Assembly: GCF_029961185.1 (NCBI RefSeq)
Contig: NZ_JASBQQ010000002.1
Coordinates: forward strand, 558,001 to 622,000
Length of the DNA: 64,000 nt
Source: Albidovulum aestuarii
GTDB taxonomy: Bacteria; Pseudomonadota; Alphaproteobacteria; Rhodobacterales; Rhodobacteraceae
Direction: 5' to 3'
Both the position numbers and the translations under genes were made by a program. Below are positions 35,605 to 41,856 of this stretch, piece after piece (the first letter of the stretch is position 1; every line of letters begins with the position of its first letter). The notes beneath the pieces were generated by a model, which saw nothing but the letters and a program-made list of their open reading frames with translations, made no database searches and was not told the origin of the DNA.

Positions 35605-36078
35605 TTACTTCTCCGCCGTTTCATTGAGTTCGTGCCAGGCAAAGGCCTGGCCGTCGGCATAAACCGCGACAACGCGGTCGACACCGGGATGGATGTTCTT
35701 TTCCGCCAGGAACGCCAAGGCCGCGCCGGATTGCAGGTCGGCGCCGATCCGTTCCGCATCGAAGCAGGGGAACTGGCGCGGGCCGATCAGGGGTTCGGCA
35801 CCGGGATAGTCGGCATAGGTCTCACTCATCAGCGCGAGCGACATCGGCACCTTGAAACAGGCGCGGAAGCGCAGGGGGGAACTGTCGGAATCGATCCCCT
35901 CGAAACCGTCCGTCGGCACCGGCTCTACTGCGCCCGACAAAGCGGTCAGGCGGATTTCAGCGGCGGCAGAGGCGGGCTCCACCGGCGCGTAATACGCGTA
36001 TTCCTGCACATAATAGAGGCCGATGCCGGCCAGAAGCGCCGTTACCACGATGAACCCCGCAACGATCTTGCCGTTCAC
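35605..36078 (-). CDS. small membrane-anchored protein between glyQ and glyS (DUF6446-like)
   Basis: A 157-residue protein starting at a GTG that overlaps the glyQ stop (GTGA). One N-terminal helix ([21 protein letters not shown]) anchors a periplasmic domain with two Cys (FRACFKV and FPCFDA). [16 protein letters not shown] closes it. I recall this as the Rhodobacterales DUF6446 family, always in this operon position; the name is from memory. The function is unknown. Its stop abuts the glyS start. Confidence 0.8.
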
Positions 36079-37007
36079 GCCGCCCGGCCTTCCGAAGCGC
36101 CGCCCGCTTCGGTCGTCACGAACGCATCGGCGCATTTTTTCGCAAGCGCGCGGACCCGGCCGATATAGGCCTGCCGCTCGGTGACCGAGATCACGCCCCG
36201 CGCGTCGAGAAGGTTGAAGAGGTGGCTGGCCTTGATGCACTGGTCATAGGCGGGATGCGCCATGACGATCCTGCGGCCTGCCCCGTCGGTCTCATCCGCG
36301 GCAAGGATGCGGGTGCATTCGGCCTCGGCATCCTCGAAGTGCTTGAGAAGCATCCCGGTATCGGCCTGATCAAAGTTCCAGCGCGAATATTCCTGTTCGG
36401 TCTGGCGGAAGATGTCGCCGTATTTCAGGGGGATCGGCGCGTCGGGATCGTTGAACGGCATGTCCATCACATGATCGACGCCCAGAACATACATCGCCAG
36501 ACGCTCCAACCCATAGGTCAGTTCGCCCGAAACCGGGTGGCAGTCATGGCCGCCGACCTGCTGGAAATAGGTGAACTGGCTGACCTCCATCCCGTCACAC
36601 CAGACCTCCCACCCGAGCCCCCATGCGCCAAGCGTCGGGCTTTCCCAGTCATCCTCCACAAAGCGGATATCATGGACCGAGGCATCGACACCGATTGCGG
36701 CGAGCGAGCCGAGATAGAGCGCCTGAAGATCGGGCGGCGAGGGTTTGATGATGACCTGATACTGGTAGTAGTGCTGCAGCCGGTTGGGGTTCTCGCCATA
36801 GCGCCCGTCGGTCGGGCGGCGCGAGGGCTGAACATAGGCCGCAGCCCAGGGACGCGAGCCCAAGGCACGCAGGGTCGTTGCCGGATGGAAGGTGCCCGCT
36901 CCCACCTCCATGTCATAGGGTTGCAGCACCGCGCAGCCCTTCGAGGCCCAGTAGGTCTGAAGCCTCAGGATGATCTCCTGGAACGAACGGGGGGCTGTGG
37001 TGGTCAT
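36075..37007 (-). CDS. glyQ: glycyl-tRNA synthetase alpha subunit
   Basis: A 310-residue catalytic subunit. [37 protein letters not shown] is the class II motif region. [29 protein letters not shown] and [16 protein letters not shown] follow. ATG 37007 fits the family start; an upstream ATG adds 20 non-conserved residues. It is the first gene of glyQ-membrane protein-glyS and divergent from the gene at 37164. Confidence 0.96.
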
Positions 37008-37163: not shown

Positions 37164-38888
37164 ATGCGTTTTACGGGCCTGGTTGCCGGATTTCTGATGA
37201 TGATTGCCGCTGTTGCGGCCGAGGCTCAGGAAACATGGGTGCAGATCGAGGCGCAGCCGTCCCTGCGCGAGGGCGAAGAACGCGCCCGCGCCTATTCGGG
37301 CGTCTTTCCCAATGTGAACGGATTTGCGATGACGACCGGCTGGTATGCGGTCGTGCTGGGCCCCTTCACACCTGAGGAGGCTGAGCGCCAGCTCTTCCTG
37401 CTGAAAAGCGAACGGCTGATCCCGGCGGACAGCTACATCGCCACCGGCTCCCGCTTCCAGAGCCAGTTCTGGCCCGTTGGCGGCACCGCCGCCTTGCCGC
37501 AACCCGAAGCGCCCGCTGTCGACACCCTGACGGCGACCCAGCCCTCGACTCTGCCGGACGAAACCCCGAACGAGGCGCGCCGGTCCGAGGCGCTGCTCTT
37601 GGCCGAGGAACGCCGTGCGCTGCAGGAAGCCCTGCAATGGGAAGGCTTTTATACCGGTGCCATCGACGGTGCCTTCGGTGCCGGCACCCGCCGCTCGATG
37701 GGCGCGTGGCAGGCCGCGATGGGATACGAGGCGTCCGGCATTCTCACGACCGCCCAGCGCGCCGAACTCATGGCGGCCTATCAGGCTGACCTTGCAGCGA
37801 TCGGGCTTGAAACCGTGACCGAGGACGAGGCCGGGATCGAGATTGCCCTGCCCCTCGCGCTGATATCCTTCGACCGCTATCAGCCGCCCTTCGTCCATTA
37901 CGGCGAAAAGGACGGGTCCGGGTTCCGCGCATTGCTGATTTCGCAAAAGGGCGATCGGGCGACGCTGTCGGGGCTCTATGACATCATGCAGACGCTGGAA
38001 ATCGTTCCCGTCTCGGGCGACCGCCAGCTGAACGCGACATCGTTCGTGCTGACCGGCCAGAATGACCGCCTGCAATCCTACAGCCAGGCCGAACTGGCGG
38101 GTGGGACGATCAAGGGCTTTACCCTTGTCTGGCCCACTGCCGAAGCAGACCGGGCGGCCCGCGTAGTCGACGCGATGAAGGCGTCCTTCCGGTCCATCGG
38201 CGATACCGCCTTGGATGAGGGGCTCGGCACGCCATTGGCCGAGGATCATGCGACCCTGATGTCCGGTCTGGAAATCCGCCGCCCGGCGCTGTCGCGGTCC
38301 GGGTTCTATCTCGACGGGACCGGGCTGGTCGCGACGACGGACGAGGTGATCGCCGAATGCCGCCGTCTGACGCTCGATGGCGGGATCGAGGCCGACACGG
38401 TACTGCATGATGCAGCGACCGGCCTTGCCGTTCTCAAGCCCCGCACATCCCTTGCGCCCCGGGCACAGGCCAATCTCAGCTCCGGTCGGGTCAATTCTGA
38501 AATCGCCGTTGCAGGGTTCTCCTATCAGGATGCGCTCGACACCGCCGTGATGAGCTTCGGCACGCTTGCCGATACGCGCGGACTCGGCGGTGAGGAACAG
38601 CTGACCCGGCTCTCGGTCCGGACGCTCGACGGCGATGCGGGCGGCCCGGTTCTCGACGCGACGGGCGCCGTCGTGGGCATGCTCCTGCCGCGCGACAAGG
38701 ATGGCAGCCGGGTATTGCCGGAGGATGTCGGCCTCGCGCTCGACGGAACCACGATCCGGGCGGCGCTCGCCGGGGCGGGGCTTGTCGCCGAACCGGTGGC
38801 GGAGACGGCAAGCACCGCCGCCCTTGCCCCTGAGGACCTGACCATGCTCGGGCGCGACATGACCGTGCTCGTCTCCTGCTGGAACTGA
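37164..38888 (+). CDS. exported peptidoglycan-binding protein with degenerate trypsin-like domain
   Basis: A 574-residue periplasmic protein with a signal peptide (MRFTGLVAGFLMMIAAVAAEA). Residues about 24-98 look SPOR-like (WYAVVLGPFTPEEAERQL). Residues about 147-206 are a PG-binding fold (LQEALQWEGFYTGAIDGAFG). The C-terminal part (about 365-545) has the HtrA/trypsin layout, but the nucleophile motif is GDAGGP (Ala492 in place of Ser), and the His and Asp positions (ATTDEVIAEC and DAATGLAVL) also lack the catalytic residues. It is therefore probably a binding protein and not a protease. It is divergent from glyQ. Confidence 0.82.
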   Translation: MRFTGLVAGFLMMIAAVAAEAQETWVQIEAQPSLREGEERARAYSGVFPNVNGFAMTTGWYAVVLGPFTPEEAERQLFLLKSERLIPADSYIATGSRFQSQFWPVGGTAALPQPEAPAVDTLTATQPSTLPDETPNEARRSEALLLAEERRALQEALQWEGFYTGAIDGAFGAGTRRSMGAWQAAMGYEASGILTTAQRAELMAAYQADLAAIGLETVTEDEAGIEIALPLALISFDRYQPPFVHYGEKDGSGFRALLISQKGDRATLSGLYDIMQTLEIVPVSGDRQLNATSFVLTGQNDRLQSYSQAELAGGTIKGFTLVWPTAEADRAARVVDAMKASFRSIGDTALDEGLGTPLAEDHATLMSGLEIRRPALSRSGFYLDGTGLVATTDEVIAECRRLTLDGGIEADTVLHDAATGLAVLKPRTSLAPRAQANLSSGRVNSEIAVAGFSYQDALDTAVMSFGTLADTRGLGGEEQLTRLSVRTLDGDAGGPVLDATGAVVGMLLPRDKDGSRVLPEDVGLALDGTTIRAALAGAGLVAEPVAETASTAALAPEDLTMLGRDMTVLVSCWN

Positions 38889-38897
38889 GCCGGGCCG

Positions 38898-40346
38898 TCA
38901 GGCCCGCCAGAACCGCGGCAGGAAAAGCACCAGAACGACCAGGAGCTCGAGCCGGCCGAGCAGCATCGCAACGGTCAGGATCCACTTCGCCAGATCATTG
39001 ATCGCGGCAAAGTTTCCAGCCGGCCCTATGATCTCGCCCAGCCCTGGGCCGATATTGGCAATGGCAGTCGCCGCGCCCGAGATCGACGTCGTGAAATCAA
39101 GCCCGGTTAGCGCAAGCGACACGGCAATGAGGCCAAGGCTGACGACGAAAAGCCCCAGAAAGCTCATAACCGAGGACAGGACCTCATCCGTCACCGGCTG
39201 CCCGGCGTAACGCGGCGCGAAAACCCCGTTCGGCGAGTGGATGCGGCGGATCTGGGCGCTGACCGCTGCAATCAAAAGCTGATAGCGGAAGATCTTGACC
39301 GAGCAACAGGTCGATCCGGCGCAGCCGCCGATGAGGCCGATGAAGAAAAAGAGAACGATCGAAAACGGCCCCCAAAGCTGGTAGTCGGCGCTGGCATAGC
39401 CTGTCCCGGTGATGATCGAGGTTACGTTGAAAACCGCCTCGCGCAGCGCATGCAGGACGCTGTCCGCGCGCACGAACACGCGATAGGCCCAGATCACCGC
39501 GATAAGAACGGCGAGCGTCCACAGAAAGCCCCGCACCTGTGCATCCTGCCAGAGCGGCCGCGCGCTGCCAGCCACAAGCTGGACGTAGCGCACGAATGGC
39601 AGCGCCGCGACGACCATGAAAAAGGATGACACATATTCCGGCGCGCCCTGAAAGAGCCCGAAGGATGCGTCCGAGGTTGAGAACCCTCCGGTGGCGATGG
39701 TTGTCATCGCATGGTTCACGGCCTCGAACCCGGTCATGCCGACGGCAACATAGGCCAGCCCACAGGCGATGGTCAGGCCGACATAGATCCCCATGATCTG
39801 CGCCGCGATCTGGGCGGCACGCGGCAGGACCTTGCCACCGGTGTCGAACCCTTCGGACCGGAAGATCTGCATGCCACCGACCCTGAGTTCGGGCAGGAAG
39901 ACCATGGCAACGACGATGATCCCGACGCCCCCAAACCATTGCAGCATCGACCGCCAAAGCAGGAGCCCGGCCGGAAAGTCGTCGAGCCCGATGAAAACCG
40001 TGGCCCCGGTCGTGGTCAGACCGGACATCGCTTCGAAAACGGCATCCACCACCCGCGCACCGGTCGCGCCGAAATAAAAGGGCAACGCCCCGAAAAGCGG
40101 CAGAACCATCCAGACACCGGTCGCCAGAAGGAAGGTCTGCTGAAGCGACAGCCGCCGCTGAACCCCATTGGCGCAGGCCACCGCCATGAAGCCGCCGCCA
40201 AGCCCGGCGATCAATGCGCTTTGCCCGAATGCCTGCCAATGGCCATTGGCATAGGCAAGATCGACCGCCATGGGAACGATCATCGTCACCCCAAGCACGG
40301 CGGTCAGCAGGCCGATCACATATCCGACGGGGCGCAGATCCAACAT
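38898..40346 (-). CDS. TrkH-family potassium uptake protein, copy 1
   Basis: A 482-residue inner-membrane K+ translocating subunit with four pore repeats. The filter loops are GLTTTGATVF, TTIATGGFS, SIITGTGYA and AIANIGPGLG, each with the filter Gly. The family end LGRLELLVVLVLFLPRFWRA is present. ATG 40346 (MLDLRPVGYVIG) matches the start of the adjacent paralogue. Trk systems need the TrkA NAD-binding subunit, which is not in the window. It lies 61 bp downstream of copy 2 on the same strand. Confidence 0.92.
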   Translation of the reverse strand: MLDLRPVGYVIGLLTAVLGVTMIVPMAVDLAYANGHWQAFGQSALIAGLGGGFMAVACANGVQRRLSLQQTFLLATGVWMVLPLFGALPFYFGATGARVVDAVFEAMSGLTTTGATVFIGLDDFPAGLLLWRSMLQWFGGVGIIVVAMVFLPELRVGGMQIFRSEGFDTGGKVLPRAAQIAAQIMGIYVGLTIACGLAYVAVGMTGFEAVNHAMTTIATGGFSTSDASFGLFQGAPEYVSSFFMVVAALPFVRYVQLVAGSARPLWQDAQVRGFLWTLAVLIAVIWAYRVFVRADSVLHALREAVFNVTSIITGTGYASADYQLWGPFSIVLFFFIGLIGGCAGSTCCSVKIFRYQLLIAAVSAQIRRIHSPNGVFAPRYAGQPVTDEVLSSVMSFLGLFVVSLGLIAVSLALTGLDFTTSISGAATAIANIGPGLGEIIGPAGNFAAINDLAKWILTVAMLLGRLELLVVLVLFLPRFWRA

Positions 40347-40407
40347 GCCAGAGCCATGGCGGGGCATCGCGAATCTGTCAAGCGTGACAGGATGGGACGT
40401 GAAAGGT

Positions 40408-41856
40408 TCAGGCCCGCCAGAAGCGCGGCAGTGCCACAACGAATATCGACAGAAGCGACAGACGGCCCATGATCATCGCTAGGATCATCAGAAGTTTCGC
40501 GGGGTCGGGAAAATCGATGAACGTGCCCGTCGGCGCTACCATCGGGCCATAGCCGTAACCGATATTCCCGATGGAGGTCCACGAGGCGAAGATCGCGGAT
40601 TCGATATCGACGCCCGTATCGAGGATCAGCACCGCGACAACGCCGAAGGTCAGGATATAGGCGCCGAGATAAAGCGTTATCGCGTCCAGCGTATCGCGGT
40701 CCACGGTGCGGCGGTCGTATCGCAAGGGTACGATCCGGCTGGAAGAATGGATGCGCCGGATCTCGGCCATCAGCCCGTTCAGCAGTACCTGGACCCGGAA
40801 CACCGACAGGCCCGCCGCGCTCGACCCCGAACAGGCACCGATAATACCAAGCCAGAGTGCGACCATGATTGCATAGCCCCCCCAGCTCGGGAAGCTTCCG
40901 GTTCCGAAACCGGTGGACGACATGATCGAGACAAGGTTGAACAGTGCCTCGCGAAAGGCAGGTTCCACCGACTGGTCGCTGGTCAGCACCCGCCAGAGCG
41001 TGACCGATGCCACCGCCGCGGCGATCCAGCCCAGATAGGCCCGCACCTGTGCATCACGATACAGAGGCTTGGCGGTGCCGTGCACGAGCTGCACGTACCG
41101 GATGTAAGGCAGACTGCCGAGGATCATGAACAGGACAGTGGTATACTCGATCGGTGCTGAATAGCCCGCGAAGGAAGCCGCGCGCGGAGAGAAACCACCT
41201 GTCGCGATCGTTGCAAAACCATGTGCCACGGCTTCGAAAACGGGCATCCCGAGCAGCGAATAACTTTCCATGCACAGGATGGTCAGCCCGGCATAGACGA
41301 AAAACAGGTCACGTGCAATGTCGGTCGCGCGCGGCAGAACCTTGCCGAACGTGTCGAACCCCTCGGCCCGGAAGAACTGCATGCCACCGACCCGCATCAC
41401 CGGCAAGAAAATCATGGCAATGAAGGCAATCCCAAGTCCGCCGAGCCAGTTGAGCATTCCGCGCCAAAGAAGAACCCCGGCGGGCAGGCGGTCGACGTCC
41501 ACGAAGACGGAGGCTCCGGTCGTCGTGATACCGGAGACTGCTTCGAAATACGCATCGATCAGGCTGACTTCCGGCTCACCTATGACGAAGGGCAAAGCGC
41601 CAAAGAACGGCACGAACAGCCAGATCCCGACCGTCAAAAGAAATGCCTGCCGTATCGACAGGCTGTTCCCGGCACGGTTCTGGCAGGCGAGCGCGGTCAA
41701 GCCACCTGCACCGATGCTGAACAAGGCCGCCTCTCCAAAGGCATCGGCGTTGCCGGTGTTCAACGCAAGGTCGGTGATAAACGGGGCGACCATCGTCAGG
41801 CCCAGACAGGCGATGACGAGTCCGACGACGTAACCAACGGGGCGCAGATCGACCAT
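40408..41856 (-). CDS. TrkH-family potassium uptake protein, copy 2
   Basis: A 482-residue paralogue of the neighbouring TrkH. The pore loops are GITTTGASVF, ATIATGGFS, SIMSSTGFG and TSIGNIGYGYG. The same MVDLRPVGYVVG start and LPRFWRA end show a tandem duplication. Filters 3 and 4 differ from copy 1, which may tune ion affinity or selectivity. Copies 2 and 1 are probably one operon, transcribed in that order. Confidence 0.92.
   Translation of the reverse strand: MVDLRPVGYVVGLVIACLGLTMVAPFITDLALNTGNADAFGEAALFSIGAGGLTALACQNRAGNSLSIRQAFLLTVGIWLFVPFFGALPFVIGEPEVSLIDAYFEAVSGITTTGASVFVDVDRLPAGVLLWRGMLNWLGGLGIAFIAMIFLPVMRVGGMQFFRAEGFDTFGKVLPRATDIARDLFFVYAGLTILCMESYSLLGMPVFEAVAHGFATIATGGFSPRAASFAGYSAPIEYTTVLFMILGSLPYIRYVQLVHGTAKPLYRDAQVRAYLGWIAAAVASVTLWRVLTSDQSVEPAFREALFNLVSIMSSTGFGTGSFPSWGGYAIMVALWLGIIGACSGSSAAGLSVFRVQVLLNGLMAEIRRIHSSSRIVPLRYDRRTVDRDTLDAITLYLGAYILTFGVVAVLILDTGVDIESAIFASWTSIGNIGYGYGPMVAPTGTFIDFPDPAKLLMILAMIMGRLSLLSIFVVALPRFWRA

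Follow-up and report, generated by a model that had tools for sequence, protein, structure and literature searches.

Why should a bacterial protein keep a trypsin-like domain whose catalytic residues are gone, and what may such a domain do at the cell wall? This question is raised by a gene in the window, i.e. the whole stretch of 64,000 nucleotides of Albidovulum aestuarii DNA that was analysed. The gene occupies positions 37164-38888 on the plus strand, on which all its features given below lie, starts with ATG, encodes a protein of 574 aa and has orthologues in other genomes. A first-pass annotation had described its product as a periplasmic pseudoprotease with two modules for cell-wall binding.

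Loss of the catalytic triad in a trypsin fold

The trypsin-like domain (residues 372-542, positions 38277-38789) is recognized by Pfam, Foldseek, VIA-align and alignment of the family profile with the solved protease HhoA. In the window protein Pfam matches Trypsin_2 (PF13365) to residues 379-506 (E 6.4e-12), Foldseek finds DegS (E 1.3e-10), and VIA-align superimposes HtrA1 with Z 19.5 and an rmsd of 2.7 over 162 residues and DegS with Z 19.4, i.e. the trypsin fold assumed in the first-pass annotation is retained. In the profile alignment the His of the HhoA motif TNAHVV corresponds to Glu394 (38343-38345), the Asp of TDLAV to Gly420 (38421-38423) and the Ser of GNSGGP to Ala492 (38637-38639), which lies within GDAGGP (residues 490-495). 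GDAGGP indeed takes the place of GDSGGP, as had been noticed before, and the His and Asp positions, also said to be lost, are replaced as well. The 574-aa protein is almost certainly not a classical serine protease. It shares the trypsin fold with the HtrA/Deg proteins (DegS, HhoA, HtrA1), but lacks the triad and, in Pfam at E <= 10, any match to PDZ. MarP (Rv3671c), a periplasmic serine protease that is active and membrane-bound, has the same fold (3k6z, Z 17.9); the match of the window protein to the MarP family NF033740 is weak (28.6 bits, cut-off 250) and does not make it a member.

The named relatives are the best 80 of at least 564 confirmed ones, and their loci represent the nearest part of the family. 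They were found by two peptide patterns located outside the triad and the sample was, thus, not chosen for triad loss. In the window protein and these 80 loci residue 394 is Glu in 53 cases, Asp in 21, Ala in four, Gln in two and Ser in one; residue 420 is Gly in 80 and Asp in one; and residue 492 is Ala in 66, Val in seven, Thr in three, Ser in two and Met, Glu or Ile in one each. A larger set, including orthologues from further genomes beyond the best 80, was derived from 150 rows, which were reduced to 134 by collapsing sequences with identical last 230 residues and to 126 by removing eight intact relatives; L027, a fragment without trypsin domain, and L037, which is not an orthologue, were excluded. 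Among these 126 orthologues position 394 is acidic in 112 (80 Glu, 32 Asp), the others having Ala (7), Gln (3) or Lys, Met, Thr and Ser (one each), and never His. Position 420 is Gly in 123 and Asn, Pro or Asp in one each, and position 492 is Ala in 104, Val in 11, Thr in five, Ser in two and Glu, Trp, Met or Ile in one each. No orthologue (0/126) carries more than one triad residue, and both carriers of Ser492 lack His and Asp. Alignment of homologues around Ala492, which the first-pass annotation had proposed as a check, hence reveals a loss common to the clade, with no His, one Asp and two Ser among the 126.

Close homologues with an intact triad, regarded in the annotation as counter-evidence, do not occur among the 126 orthologues, and an intact triad is only present in paralogues and more distant proteases. 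This intact set consists of 28 distinct non-orthologous relatives, taken from among the matches listed, and includes same-family paralogues such as L031, relatives in other alphaproteobacteria and HtrA-like proteins (L168, which repeats L031, was excluded). His and Asp are kept in 28/28 and Ser in 27/27, as the contig of L185 stops short of the Ser.

Around the former triad, several positions are constrained to residues that differ from those in the active relatives. Residue 378 (38295-38297) is Arg in 116/126 orthologues and Gly in 28/28 intact relatives; residue 482 (38607-38609) is Arg in 98% of the 126 orthologues, and the intact relatives have Gln in 25/27, the two exceptions having Met and Thr; and residue 491, Asp in the window protein, is Asn in 26/27 intact relatives. 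When the changes per column were counted on a tree of the 126 sequences, the median column required 29 changes, position 420 three, positions 482 and 491 two each, position 378 eight, position 492, which varies among mostly small residues, 17, and position 394 31. If only the label acidic or non-acidic is counted, position 394 crosses this line 13 times, and together with its ordinary rate this implies that an acid is preferred there, not required. We take residue 378 to correspond approximately to position 41 in chymotrypsin numbering, near His57. A salt bridge between Arg378 and Glu394, proposed from this numbering, was not adopted as the covariation is no proof: Arg is combined with an acid in 105/126 sequences, Arg with Ala in six and Gly with Asp in three.

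Domain setting of the trypsin-like part

The AlphaFold model calculated with 56 orthologues has a mean pLDDT of 89.7 and a pTM of 0.60 and comprises a SPOR-like unit (residues 24-94), the helices of the peptidoglycan-binding (PGB) domain, an alpha/beta unit (215-341), the beta-rich trypsin-like part and a C-terminal strand (567-573). This strand contains Cys572 (38877-38879) within the terminal VSCWN. Cys572 and Cys399 (38358-38360) are invariant in the orthologue alignments and probably form a disulfide; Cys is also found in 19/28 intact relatives at position 399 and in 18/28 at position 572, the remaining ten having a gap in the latter column. Residues 1-22 (37164-37229) probably constitute a signal peptide, judged by inspection of the sequence (...AAEA-QE) and modelled as a helix at residues 2-18, so that the protein is likely to be secreted.

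The SPOR-like domain (residues 23-106, 37230-37481) is defined by the topology of the model, as residues 24-94 are arranged as beta-alpha-beta-beta-alpha-beta (strands 24-31, 51-56, 61-68 and 91-94, helices 34-45 and 70-82). The window protein itself gives no match to PF05036 (SPOR) at E <= 10, and 40 of the 56 orthologues match at E <= 1, the best with E 1.9e-7. PG_binding_1 is matched at residues 148-200 (E 2.4e-10; 40.9 bits against a curated cut-off of 23) within a structured region at 135-213 (37566-37802) and is present in 56/56 orthologues.

A further module, absent from the first-pass annotation, is a PsbP/Mog1-fold domain at about residues 214-345 (37803-38198), for which neither the window protein nor the 56 orthologues show a PsbP or Mog1 family match in Pfam. 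Residues 206-356, predicted alone, reach a pLDDT of 92.0, and this model matches PsbP in Foldseek (2xb3, E 2.9e-6) and VIA-align (7pi0_P, Z 12.4, rmsd 3.8, 133 residues aligned), followed by Mog1 (1eq6, Z 10.5, rmsd 3.8, 135 aligned), with LpqN and DcrB scoring lower (Z 8.9 and 8.8). The sequence identity of the module to PsbP structures is about 10%.

Spread, origin and selection

Matches at E <= 1e-139 occur in 56 of 61 genomes of the order; four genomes, all of one genus, have partial matches and one has none. In a class-wide draw of 192 genomes, searched at E <= 1e-25, full-length matches were found in three genomes only, which belong to the same family, and seven others matched in the trypsin domain only. 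The best 80 relatives include Defluviimonas, which provides the closest one with 98% identity, and Thalassovita, i.e. the NCBI families Paracoccaceae and Roseobacteraceae of the Rhodobacterales.

In the window the gene is preceded by glyS, a DUF6446 gene and glyQ and followed by two trkH genes, all on the minus strand. Among the best 80 loci glyQ lies divergently upstream in 74, at a distance of <=500 bases in 72, glyS and the DUF6446 gene are present in 70 and a trkH gene in 60. Two of the six loci without glyQ have little upstream sequence, and the other four (L051, L053, L056, L081) have room for it. The DUF6446 gene of the window (35605-36240, E 3.5e-44) is located between glyQ and glyS. 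The trkH-family genes form a tandem pair at 38898-41856, both matching PF02386, and other loci have one copy or two.

The SPOR-PGB-PsbP part can exist without the dead domain, and the whole gene can be absent. In the genus g46 (G066, G082, G108 and G114, 4/4 sampled genomes) the SPOR-PGB-PsbP part is found at the glyQ-trkH locus and the trypsin domain is missing; the proteins (L152, L153, L154, L156) contain apparently duplicated SPOR-like units, PGB and a PsbP-like part, with Pfam matches to SPOR in L153 (E 0.0005) and L152 (E 0.076) and no match in the other two. In G022 trkH adjoins glyQ and the gene between them is missing, and in G025, G035 and G068 there is no relative in the stretch fetched upstream of glyQ; the gene is, therefore, not indispensable. 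G029 has no full-length match, and its glyQ lies near a contig end.

The genome of the window also encodes an intact counterpart, L031 (contig C21:307000-309800), a paralogue with PGB, PsbP-like and Trypsin_2 domains that keeps His, Asp and Ser and thus serves as natural catalytic counterpart and control in the same genome. Proteases of this type have the same layout and Cys positions as the dead protein, but their triad is intact, residue 378 is Gly, and matches at E <= 1e-20 occur in only 6/61 genomes of the order. When the profile of the dead family was compared with that of eight intact paralogues, 538 homologous columns could be aligned, which extend from the SPOR region through the PsbP-like region as far as the terminal Cys (Prob 100, E 1.7e-46), and the intact paralogues therefore share the layout of the dead protein; a clear N-terminal SPOR-like part is present in only some of the eight. 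For L159 and L160, two proteases of this type, BLAST gives a match to the SPOR-PGB part of the window protein. In a midpoint-rooted tree of 21 intact domains and a sample of 43 from the 126 dead ones, 20 of them drawn at random and some selected for diversity, all 43 dead domains lie on one side of a branch of length 2.05 with a support of 100/100. The simplest account is a single loss of the triad before the sampled Rhodobacterales orthologues diverged, followed by long retention; as the tree is midpoint-rooted, the direction from intact to dead depends on the assumption that the triad is ancestral. The 951-aa open frame L034 (G052:C86:47500-50900) likewise contains an intact trypsin domain of this subfamily, together with a PGB-like stretch and many repeats that by eye resemble Sel1 repeats.

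Purifying selection acts on the dead trypsin domain, which is not decaying. Compared with the nearest orthologue, L042, dN is 0.008 and dS 0.246; for L043, L044, L045 and L050 dN/dS are 0.213/1.237, 0.244/0.794, 0.268/0.867 and 0.362/1.015, corresponding to ratios of about 0.17 to 0.36 at a dS that is high in all four. In every folded domain dN is lower than dS for the five orthologues compared. The dN of the dead domain is lower than that of the PsbP-like domain for L042, about equal for L043 and L044 and higher for L045 and L050. The mean majority fraction in 81 sequences is 0.636 for the dead domain, 0.638 for the PsbP-like domain, 0.653 for SPOR and 0.682 for PGB. With a clade-wide loss of the triad, a trypsin fold and purifying selection, the designation as pseudoprotease holds. 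It could be objected that the gene is decaying or misread, since an ORF of 416 aa overlaps it on the minus strand, but the matches in 56 of 61 genomes of the order, dN being below dS throughout and the absence of in-frame stops from the matched stretches of the best 80 loci, by which the coding strand is right, render the chance of this practically negligible.

Possible role at the cell wall

We believe with moderate confidence that the protein, taken as a whole, is a secreted, probably peptidoglycan-associated pseudoprotease which is kept as a wall-anchored binding adaptor or regulator. The narrower proposal that the dead trypsin domain is itself a partner-binding adaptor is tentative, being possible rather than probable. 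According to this scheme an ancestral protease with SPOR, PG_binding_1, PsbP-like and trypsin domains would have lost His, Asp and Ser, and the inactive copy would then have been retained as a binding module. SPOR and PG_binding_1 may hold the protein on the wall, as their domain types suggest, perhaps with a preference for the septum, as SPOR domains are known to attach to denuded glycan there (PMC6895207). A ligand, be it a protein, a peptide or something else, may be bound by the PsbP-like domain and, by analogy with MamO, by the dead trypsin cleft; the protein as a whole would then serve as adaptor or regulator, and a plausible target would be an active periplasmic protease or a wall enzyme. 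That the fold has been reused at the cell wall for binding or sensing, as suggested in the first-pass annotation, is plausible.

The nearest analogue is MamO of Magnetospirillum, likewise an alphaproteobacterial protein, whose trypsin-like domain no longer catalyses but still has another role (PMC4794232), and its structure (5hma) superimposes on the domain studied here with Z 17.9 and an rmsd of 2.4 over 161 residues (VIA-align). In our literature search, which covered titles and abstract openings, MamO was the sole bacterial pseudoprotease of trypsin fold for which both a solved structure and a tested role turned up. However, MamO has His116, Asp149 and a predicted nucleophile, Thr225, whereas all three residues are gone here; MamO has a transporter domain and a role in magnetosome formation, whereas the partners here are SPOR-like, PG_binding_1 and PsbP-like domains and the neighbouring genes glyQ, glyS and trkH. 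The dead protease domain of MamO binds a transition metal, and MamO promotes MamE-dependent proteolysis via its transporter domain, not its protease domain (PMC4794232), and it is therefore no direct precedent for a protease adaptor; such a role for the protein studied here would be a guess from the layout. What is new is a trypsin-fold pseudoprotease that has lost all three residues, in a SPOR-PGB-PsbP setting, in most sampled Rhodobacterales, i.e. a dead protease that most sampled genomes of a large order contain, as a rule in a single copy and at a conserved locus.

The adaptor reading has to be weighed against others. The trypsin domain might be a structural remnant, a stable spacer or dimer surface only, the work being done by SPOR, PG_binding_1 and PsbP-like domains; the proteins of g46, which do without it, and the variability of position 492 are in line with this, but a conservation equal to that of the PsbP-like domain and the near fixation of positions 378, 420, 482 and 491 to residues unlike those of active relatives make it a rather unlikely account. 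Retained enzymatic activity, at an active site that has moved or is non-canonical, might be deduced from the oxyanion loop, of which G490, G493, G494 and P495 are kept in >=96% of the 126 sequences, and from newly conserved hydroxyls at Thr392 (83%; Asn in 27/28 intact relatives) and Ser571 (88%). This is highly improbable, given that position 394 is His in none of the orthologues, that no His is found among the columns conserved to more than 80% and that the intact relatives, too, have the invariant Thr391 and the Cys pair.

We further speculate that the dead active site has turned into a new charged site, in which Arg378, Glu394, Arg482 and Asp491 surround Gly420, and that this site senses a wall-linked ligand and signals via the PsbP-like domain, making the protein a protease-derived receptor, although we regard this as distinctly unlikely. 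Candidate ligands would be a peptidoglycan stem peptide or the tail of an unfolded outer-membrane protein, and the signal would be passed on, at the site of division, to a protease of the periplasm or a wall hydrolase. If true, such a protease-derived cell-wall receptor would be widespread in the Rhodobacterales. As there are intact paralogues of the same layout and one sampled genus without the dead domain, the role of a dead protease at the wall is directly testable in laboratory species.

The analysis yielded no ligand or partner, no localisation and no phenotype for this protein, the titles and abstract openings searched contain no description of it, and the main text of a Tn-seq study of Rhodobacter sphaeroides (PMC5513736) lacks the terms sought concerning essentiality. 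RSP_1880 of R. sphaeroides, a peptidoglycan-binding protein that is a target of CenR (PMC9275681) and co-precipitates with DalA (PMC10470522), was provisionally set aside as a possible orthologue because of the neighbouring locus tags, which are not glyQ/trkH: nearby are the cytochrome oxidase genes RSP1876-1877 (PMC2908626) and potA (RSP_1882).
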